Source: Trileptium ribeirensis
Taxonomy: Eukaryota > Nematoda > Enoplea > Enoplida > Thoracostomopsidae
Length of the DNA stretch: 64,000 bases
Direction: 5' to 3'
NCBI GenBank assembly: GCA_030248225.1
Contig: JASANE010019403.1
Span: 39,811 to 103,810 of the forward strand
A program made the position numbers and the translations under genes. Shown piece after piece: positions 46,902-48,075 of this stretch (positions within the stretch are counted from its first letter, which is position 1; every line of letters starts with the position of its first letter). The notes beneath the pieces were generated by a model. That model made no database searches. It worked only from the letters and a program-made list of their open reading frames with translations, and was not told where the DNA came from.

Positions 46902-47291
46902 CTACGACGAACGTCTCGATAATAAGAACTGCATCGCCAAACATCCAAAATGTCTAGTTTTGTTTATGCTCCATTTAAGGAAAAAGAAACTTTTCGCCAA
47001 CGGTGCGGATTCCCTTCGTATGCGGCAGCCAGACGATTTGCTTTTTGCAAACCGGGTGCTTGGTTGGCCTAAACTCGAAAACATTAATATTTTTGGGTTC
47101 GACGTAAGCGAAGTGATTCGTTGAAAAAATTGTACAGCTATACTAGCTTTTGATGGTTGTTTCCTGAATTTTAGTCGAGAATTGTCTGCTCTGATGATAC
47201 GAGCCGGCCAACTCGGGTAGCCATAAAATTTAGCATATACAACGTCTTCTTTAAACTTTAAAATTACAGCTTTATCATTTAAATCATTCAT
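46902..47291 (-). CDS. PWWP-domain ORF directly after a gypsy integrase
   Basis: This 129-codon frame begins MNDLNDKAVILKF. Residues about 12-35 read FKEDVVYAKFYGYPSWPARI, a textbook PWWP motif: the GYP-x-WPARI core and the preceding V-x-AK strand match the HDGF/LEDGF type. ASIAVQFFQ follows as the likely VxFF strand, and SNPKILMF may be the end of the barrel. PWWP domains bind H3K36-methylated nucleosomes and DNA. The ATG overlaps the integrase stop by 8 nt (47284-47291), in the +1 frame relative to integrase. This suggests either a third retrotransposon ORF or a former integrase-PWWP fusion broken by an indel. The last third of the frame is basic and unrecognised. A captured host gene exon is the main alternative. 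Confidence 0.65.
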   Translation of the reverse strand: MNDLNDKAVILKFKEDVVYAKFYGYPSWPARIIRADNSRLKFRKQPSKASIAVQFFQRITSLTSNPKILMFSSLGQPSTRFAKSKSSGCRIRRESAPLAKSFFFLKWSINKTRHFGCLAMQFLLSRRSS

Positions 47292-48075
47292 TTGCTTTAA
47301 CAGTTTGCTTTTGCAAACCTAAATGACTCCTCTCATCTGTTAGAAGAAAAGCTGGTTTAACACGATCAATCGAAATTTTTACTTCAGCATTATCGCGTAC
47401 AATGGTGACAGTCTTATTACCATGCAGTGTTATTTTATATGGGCCAATATACCGATCAGACAGAGAACTTTTAGGGTGAACGTCTTTCAGCCAGACATGT
47501 GTTGCTGATTTTAAGGTTTCTGGCGTATGACACGGGTTTTTATAATCCGATTCGGTTTTGGAAATTCCTGAACCATTTAAAAAAAATTTGTTTACAAAGT
47601 CTGAACTTGGTTTAATGATAGTTGAAACATAATCTGGAAAATAGTCAAACGGTATCACCAAATTTTCACCATAAACTAGTTGCGAAGGGCTAAATCTATC
47701 ACGGCTGACAGCAGCTCGGAGACCAAGCATGACTAATGGCAGTGCTTCGTACCAGTTGTTATTCTGTGAATATTTAGCACGCAATGCACTTTTTAGGGTG
47801 CGATCAAATCTTTCAATCACATCATTGCATTGTGGATGATATGACGTTGTCGTCTTACGATGTATGCCTAAATATTGGATTAGTATACTCCATAGTGTAG
47901 ACTCAAATTGTTTACCACGGTCTGAAATCAACACTCGTGAAACTCCGAATCTGCTCATCCAGTTATGCATAAAGGCAGTTGCAACCGTCTCGGTTGAAAT
48001 ATTCTTGACCGGTATAGCTTCTACCCATCGAGTAAAACGGTCTATACCTGTGATTAGATAATGAAATTTATTTGA
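47284..48075 (-). CDS. Gypsy integrase: catalytic core and C-terminal domain
   Basis: The long clean frame 47284-47970 starts HNWMSRFGVSRVLISDRGKQ, which includes the second catalytic Asp in SDRG. It continues through TSYHPQCNDVIERFDRTLK with the catalytic Glu, and through LVYGENLVIPFDYF. It ends in a beta-barrel-like segment DRYIGPYKITLHGNKTVTIV and VKISIDRVKPAFLL. The first catalytic Asp lies just upstream, in the neighbouring frame (AHIDIVGR near 48095), separated by a short disrupted junction near 48060. This is a Ty3/gypsy-type integrase that inserts the element's cDNA. It has few visible defects, so the insertion is relatively young. Confidence 0.88.
   Translation of the reverse strand, partial: SNKFHYLITGIDRFTRWVEAIPVKNISTETVATAFMHNWMSRFGVSRVLISDRGKQFESTLWSILIQYLGIHRKTTTSYHPQCNDVIERFDRTLKSALRAKYSQNNNWYEALPLVMLGLRAAVSRDRFSPSQLVYGENLVIPFDYFPDYVSTIIKPSSDFVNKFFLNGSGISKTESDYKNPCHTPETLKSATHVWLKDVHPKSSLSDRYIGPYKITLHGNKTVTIVRDNAEVKISIDRVKPAFLLTDERSHLGLQKQTVKANE

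Follow-up and report, generated by a model that had tools for sequence, protein, structure and literature searches.

The 64,000-nucleotide stretch of Trileptium ribeirensis DNA analysed here (contig JASANE010019403.1, positions 39,811 to 103,810; hereafter the window) carries on its minus strand the remains of a Ty3/gypsy long terminal repeat (LTR) retrotransposon whose integrase is followed by a PWWP domain. This is a decayed copy from a family in which a CsRn1-type Pol ends with integrase, GPY/F module, linker, PWWP and tail, and we consider it likely that the PWWP tethers the intasome to chromatin methylated at lysine 36 of histone H3 (H3K36). The host genome, by which we mean the 687,459,628-base assembly that contains the window, carries PWWP behind the integrase in 49 of 50 inspected integrase loci, and in 41 of the 50 the integrase and at least the PWWP start lie in one open reading frame (ORF). 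This supports the proposal, made in a preliminary description of the window, that these elements bring along a PWWP of their own.

The integrase-PWWP junction in the window

The integrase of the window lies in ORF 47284-48156 on the minus strand (Pfam PF00665 rve, E 1.6e-10), which ends with the stop TGA at 47286-47284. According to the ORF list of the window, the following minus-strand ORF, 46902-47318, is in the +1 frame, i.e. one base off the integrase frame, and its ATG overlaps the integrase stop as ATGAATGA, over 8 nt (47291-47284). Residues 25-82 of this ORF match the Pfam profile PF00855 PWWP with 37.8 bits against a gathering threshold of 25.6 (E 2.7e-9). The PWWP motif in a minus-strand frame after the integrase, the 8-nt overlap and the +1 frame had all been pointed out in the preliminary description, and they are borne out by the profile score and the ORF coordinates. 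As for the extent of the domain, its first half had been recognized correctly, while the second half and the tail, placed in other frames, had been missed; and to call the integrase well preserved was too kind, as the Pol upstream is split among several frames.

The PWWP of the window is spread over three frames and ends at the stop 46966-46964. ORF 46902-47318 runs out of frame beyond about residue 67, and the second half of the domain, FSTNHFAYVEPKNINVFEFRPTKH (47130-47041), scored 19.5 bits (E 9e-4) with a profile built from the seven fused PWWPs of the relatives described below. The third-frame piece LQKANRLAAAYEGNPHRWRKVSFSLNGA gave no significant score on its own with a profile derived from the PWWPs of three relatives that have the integrase fusion (E 6.7), and it matches the tails of host copies (tblastn, E down to 8e-10); together with the stop 46966-46964 it looks like the last PWWP helix and the Pol tail. 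The window frame reached 51.1 bits (E 8.2e-16) with the three-relative profile and 45.3 bits (E 9.1e-12) with the seven-relative profile, the latter among 23,204 six-frame segments from 81 sources, namely the window and 80 prokaryote loci; at E <=1, the window alone matched this profile and none of the 80 prokaryote loci did. The pieces of the junction are:

47284..48156, minus strand: integrase catalytic core and GPY/F module (IGPYKI ... SIDRVKPAFL), frame ending in the linker (Pfam)
47118..47246, minus strand: PWWP N-terminal half (DVVYAKFYGYPSWPARI ... AVQFF), one base off the integrase frame (Pfam and family profiles)
47041..47130, minus strand: PWWP second half (FSTNHFAYVEPKNINVFEFRPTKH), different frame (family profile and host-copy comparison)
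46964..47059, minus strand: apparent final helix of the PWWP, followed by the tail of Pol (RKVSF) up to the TAA stop 46966-46964, in the third frame (host-copy tail matches)

In the window copy, the integrase-PWWP fusion is split: at least three changes of frame gave rise to the 8-nt overlap and leave this copy unable to make the fusion. Its linker can be aligned by eye with the linkers of other host copies. Since many host copies hold an uninterrupted integrase-PWWP frame, the frame change in the window represents decay.

Copies in the host genome

A search of the host genome with the PWWP DNA alone gave 14 rows, two of which belong to a single copy, so that the window plus 12 further copies are represented. 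The integrase is located directly upstream in 12/12 of the other copies, and in 10 of them the integrase end and the PWWP start share a frame, with one stop in between in two of these 10. The search with the integrase alone resulted in 4385 candidates, of which 135 were scored and 50 of those inspected for PWWP, comprising the best 30 and 20 lower-ranked loci picked mostly for long open frames. Among the best 30 (the window included, together with seven of the 12 copies found by PWWP DNA), PWWP follows downstream in 30/30 and at least its start lies within the integrase ORF in 23/30. In loci L115, L116 and L127, the integrase ORF breaks within the PWWP domain. The lower-ranked loci hold PWWP in 19/20, and in 18/20 it shares the ORF of the integrase; the sole miss is L131, whose integrase frame is broken. 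Integrase copies devoid of PWWP, which the preliminary description had set against its own proposal, are thus limited to this single locus among the 50 inspected.

In two host copies, the PWWP is located between LTR-like repeats. In the first (L090 with L097), two pairs of repeats, one of 319 bp (90% alike) and one of 150 bp (92% alike), add up to an LTR pair of about 470 bp, and a primer-like site with 3 mismatches adjoins the 5′ LTR; no clear target site duplication was seen by eye beside these LTRs, where 4 bp would be expected for the CsRn1 clade. In the second (L089 with L096), the repeats are 567 bp long and 98.9% alike, with a primer-like site of 4 mismatches directly at the inner end of the repeat. 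Mismatches are counted, for these two copies and for the window, against what we take to be the tRNA-Trp primer-site pattern. Two further primer-like sites, at L089:8407-8422 (minus strand) and 769-784 (plus strand), have 1 mismatch each; the former lies outside the LTR-like pair and matches the pattern better than the site at the repeat. These further sites perhaps belong to neighbouring or nested elements.

Relatives in public protein sets

With the integrase ORF as query, 8 proteins were retrieved out of about 5.8 billion, three of them with PF00855. When these three were used as queries, 1367 hits were obtained, 120 of them listed, and seven of the 125 proteins fetched from both searches carry a fused PWWP; the seven are a lower bound, because 120 of the 1367 hits were covered. 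In 7/7 of these fused relatives, which bear the source marks jgi, ena and lgn and come from contigs of 1.0 to 6.4 kb, integrase and PWWP share one ORF, and in P0012 (671 aa) RNase H, H2C2, rve and PWWP follow each other in a single frame. PF00855 is above gathering in 6/7 (26.9-53.4 bits, compared with 53.2 for host copy L089); the seventh, P0009, is under the cut-off with 16.5 bits, yet it reaches 34 bits with the fused-PWWP family profile, built from three of the seven. The remaining 118 fetched proteins gave no match to this profile (E 1.9 or worse). As a protein query, the broken PWWP ORF of the window found nothing at E 0.001; no relative was detected in two scans of viral contigs, and none of the 80 loci from the prokaryote-genome scan held a PWWP match in six frames.

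Domain order, Pol tail and selection

The Pol C terminus consists of integrase core, GPY/F, linker, PWWP and a short tail, in this order. In 116 of the 118 fetched relatives that lack PWWP, the tail after GPY/F is readable, and 86 of these tails contain an RVxF-like motif ([RK]x0-1[VI]x[FW]), whereas shuffled tails gave a mean of 3.75 and 0/2000 shuffles reached 86. RVxF motifs serve as docking sites for protein phosphatase 1. Behind the PWWP of the fused relatives, the motif is present in 4/7 by the same pattern and in 6/7 as [VI]xF (unshuffled), and the window tail RKVSF, likewise behind the PWWP, resembles it. As the tail motif is common to relatives without PWWP, the domain is placed inside Pol and not behind it, and the RVxF-like tail behind the PWWP looks like the old Pol C terminus. 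In the proteins without PWWP among P0003-P0125, the RVxF-like tail is often similar to TRSGRxVRFPDYYRP.

The ratio of non-synonymous to synonymous differences per site (pN/pS, Nei-Gojobori) was calculated for the in-frame N half of the PWWP, with non-independent pairs, stops skipped and synonymous sites near saturation. Its median was 0.25 for 28 pairs of 8 copies, including some L083 and L084 residues past their frame changes, in comparison with 0.28 for the integrase, and 0.21 (range 0.07-0.59) with 13 copies, where 78/78 pairs remained <1. These values, all below 1 in the comparison across copies that the preliminary description had suggested, clearly point to a PWWP maintained for its protein by purifying selection.

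PWWP type and possible mode of action

When a profile of five fused PWWPs was compared with solved structures, LEDGF ranked first, followed by HDGF-related 3 and 2 (E down to 4.9e-13); HDGF itself came after a chain each of NSD2 and DNMT3B. A PWWP of the LEDGF/HDGF type would bind nucleosomal DNA and methylated H3K36 via its aromatic cage, and would in this way most likely anchor the intasome of the element on transcribed, H3K36-methylated chromatin. The domain would fulfil in cis the role that LEDGF/p75 plays in trans for lentiviral integrase and the chromodomain plays for chromoviruses, and with many copies holding the fusion in an unbroken frame, these elements may choose their insertion sites via histone marks.

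The cage positions used here are in part presumed by us, while Y and W rest on work on the protein JASPer. In JASPer, changing cage Y23 and W26 abolishes the binding of trimethylated H3K36 (H3K36me3; PMC6877644), and these two residues would correspond by position to Y and W of GYPxWPA. The window keeps the predicted cage, with Y and W in GYPSWPA and with FF, and the cage W is kept in 7/7 relatives as well as in the window. In the AlphaFold2 model of the relative P0001, the PWWP (residues 291-370) has a mean predicted local distance difference test score (pLDDT) of 90-97 and GPY/F (residues 161-220) of 89-97, and the joining stretch 231-280, with a low pLDDT of 43-51, would suit a tether.

Several observations weigh against H3K36-directed tethering. 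The window ORF alone matches PWWP2B and Drosophila LD23804p ahead of LEDGF, weakly (E 0.003-0.005). The cage Y is Y in 4/7 relatives, W in one and neither in P0009 and P0012, which are also altered at F and T of FFGT and, among the cage positions inspected, keep only the W; with a cage that is largely lost in these two, it may be that certain lineages recognize a different ligand or have none. Host lineages also vary at the cage Y (GFQxWPA and NWPxWPA), and a stop codon stands in place of the cage W in three decayed host copies. In addition, the P0001 model is poor overall (predicted template modelling score 0.34, with much of the integrase core at pLDDT <80), and the integrase and PWWP distances among the seven relatives showed no significant correlation (Mantel r 0.27, 904/5040 permutations).

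The best surviving alternative takes the fusion as real and sees in the PWWP a clamp that holds nucleosomes or DNA in general, or a factor that serves retention in the nucleus, assembly or the evasion of silencing, and that would not read methylated H3K36. The differences of cage residues among lineages are in favour of such a function, as is the fact that PWWP domains bind DNA too (PMC6877644); however, the LEDGF/HDGF types are the closest solved relatives by profile, the LEDGF PWWP reads H3K36me3 (PMC8149907) and the cage W is kept in the seven relatives and the window, which in our opinion makes this explanation rather unlikely, although worth serious consideration.

The preliminary description had offered three ideas on expression. 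A broken fusion fits the window copy, whereas a third ORF produced by frameshifting or by reinitiation is not the design of the family, because integrase and PWWP start share an ORF in most loci inspected. The 8-nt overlap in the window would agree with a separate third ORF made by frameshifting or termination-reinitiation at ATGAATGA, and in the L085/L089 copy one in-frame stop is at once followed by an ATG, but against these stand the 41 one-frame loci, the seven proteins from other contigs and the window linker that aligns with those of other copies. Judged by these frames, the third ORF is already contradicted for the element family, and we hold it to be very improbable. A host PWWP gene exon that chances to adjoin the insertion has practically nothing to recommend it, as no point in its favour was found and the single-copy exon considered in the preliminary description is refuted by the integrase upstream of all 12 other PWWP-DNA copies and by the PWWP inside LTR-like repeat pairs in two of the copies.

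Evolution of the fusion

In a tree of 48 integrase rows, the seven relatives group with the window and the end-truncated P0014 (support 96/40), and an inner set of eight rows is supported with 95/85; a topology in which the eight PWWP rows form one clade is not rejected (approximately unbiased test, p 0.589). One state change is needed if P0014 is not counted and two if it is, while in a quick tree of 66 rows, including 27 host rows, two changes are required even when P0014 is left out, and the support is weak. One gain followed by one loss of the PWWP, or two gains, are both compatible with these trees.

The downstream NADAR-SGNH ORF

Many copies carry a NADAR-SGNH ORF after the PWWP, which makes this ORF, and not the PWWP, the family's further ORF behind Pol. 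In L089, NADAR (PF08719, E 3.3e-20) follows the PWWP, with an SGNH/GDSL-like hydrolase under the cut-off (E 3.1e-5), and in L090 NADAR shares an ORF inside the LTRs with the first half of the SGNH stretch; the NADAR-SGNH stretch is enclosed by LTR-like repeats in two copies. It was located, together with a remnant in the window, as follows:

L089:1395-2356 and L090:1314-2284, both minus strand, also L100-L113: NADAR and SGNH-hydrolase stretch behind Pol-PWWP
46440..46749 of the window, minus strand: NADAR piece (RYCGPRHPFSHLHNCSLVLHNRFWSSVEQ), triplicated, remnant of the downstream ORF (matches the L089 NADAR ORF by tblastn, best E 6e-8)

The triplicated piece, which has no Pfam match, is carried by a tandem array with a 107-bp unit at 46414-46748. 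Within the inspected <=1.6 kb downstream, NADAR was found in 21/30 and SGNH in 22/30 of the best loci, some of the matches being weak (E between 1e-4 and 1e-3); among the lower loci, 1/20 has NADAR, and SGNH was sought in the best 30. The pN/pS medians were 0.30 for NADAR (10 pairs) and 0.37 for SGNH (15 pairs). Tentatively, and with clearly less confidence than we have in the tethering Pol itself, the elements could be regarded as a deep and diverse LTR lineage which aims at H3K36-methylated chromatin by a LEDGF-like integrase reader, and in which the NADAR-SGNH protein of many members might handle ADP-ribose-type modifications of their own nucleic acid or of host defence targets.

Comparison with known systems

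The CHCC knuckle and GPY/F are common to the present family and to the CsRn1-clade elements (CsRn1, PwRn1, AgCR), as would be the putative tRNA-Trp-type primer site, and a CHCC Gag knuckle with a tRNA-Trp-type primer site is characteristic of that clade (PMC2582038). The elements studied there have, according to the accessible text, neither chromodomain nor env, whereas the present family has a PWWP and often a NADAR-SGNH ORF. The CsRn1 assignment is based on features, and the integrase trees hold fluke, moth and other rows, none labelled CsRn1.

A chromodomain fused to the integrase is the hallmark of chromoviruses (PMC3605345). In these and other integrase-chromodomain Gypsy elements, a histone reader likewise lies behind the integrase, with a chromodomain there and a PWWP here; Pfam found no chromodomain in the window ORFs, in P0001-P0016 or in the L089 ORFs given, and found the PWWP instead. 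Gypsy-10_Ec32 of Ectocarpus also has its reader at the Pol C terminus, in an integrase-Tudor arrangement, a Tudor and not a PWWP (PMC12477816), while the NADAR-bearing Gypsy lineages of Ectocarpus have NADAR at the Pol N terminus and not downstream of Pol as here (PMC12477816); the word PWWP does not occur in the accessible text of that paper. In the working model for lentiviruses, the PWWP of LEDGF/p75 tethers the integrase to H3K36me3 chromatin (PMC8149907), LEDGF/p75 being a host protein that acts in trans, in contrast to the element-encoded PWWP in cis. Bdelloid LTR-retrotransposons likewise have an SGNH/GDSL hydrolase in ORF3 behind pol (PMC5408684), and neither PWWP nor NADAR is mentioned in the accessible part of this paper on bdelloid elements. 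PMC3978060 was considered as a precedent and rejected, since its PWWP belongs to a host gene hit by a transposon.

Among the papers listed by the searches of open-access literature, with subscription papers and Repbase outside this scope, an integrase-PWWP retrotransposon was not found. Known integrase readers are chromodomains and, once, a Tudor (PMC12477816), to which the PWWP would be the H3K36-type counterpart. If this is true, retrotransposons evolved in cis the type of tether that human immunodeficiency virus borrows from its host. With many diverged one-frame fusions in one genome, and PWWP-less relatives elsewhere, the effect of the reader on insertion choice is testable by mapping insertions alone.

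Other parts of the window element and neighbouring sequences

Upstream of the integrase, the following pieces of the element were recognized:

51904..51919, minus strand: putative primer binding site, tRNA-Trp type (TGGTGAGCCCGACGTC), 2 mismatches to the presumed pattern (pattern scan)
51149..51418, minus strand: N-terminal Gag piece, resembling the L089 Gag ORF by eye, no Pfam match
50208..50663, minus strand: Gag piece with CHCC knuckle CX2HX9CX3C (CYYHFRFGAKATKCTSPC), counted by eye
49394..49913, minus strand: Pol pieces before and within reverse transcriptase, broken frames (ORFs, Pfam)
48696..48938, minus strand: RNase H piece of Pol (PF17919, 3.5e-18)
48054..48653, minus strand: RNase H end and integrase H2C2 zinc-binding domain (PF17921, 2.1e-13)

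The primer-site pattern has 1 match in the window, compared with 0.20 expected by shuffling, and at least one match was obtained in 17/100 shuffles. Counted by eye, the CX2HX9CX3C motif is also present in host copies L089 and L090, and the Gag piece 50208-50663 has no Pfam match at E 0.1. Within the reverse transcriptase region, 49394-49666 matches RVT_1 under the Pfam cut-off (E 6.7e-5), and the piece 49731-49913 has no Pfam match. On either side of the window copy, a search for paired LTRs found none. The window element is a decayed copy of a Ty3/gypsy LTR retrotransposon with CsRn1-type features.

Other sequences of the window include Gag-like ORFs of a second Ty3/gypsy-type element at 39894-41127 (plus strand), with Ty3_capsid under the cut-off (E 0.076), and a short frame at 45468-45707 (plus strand; LKSGKASGADGVP) that by eye resembles part of the reverse transcriptase of a long interspersed nuclear element and has no Pfam match at E 0.1. 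A lone ORF of 478 aa at 58527-59963 (minus strand), without a Pfam match, resembles by eye an ionotropic-receptor-type membrane protein. Finally, a 24-bp unit forms a 78-copy array at 27424-29306, in which several frames are open.
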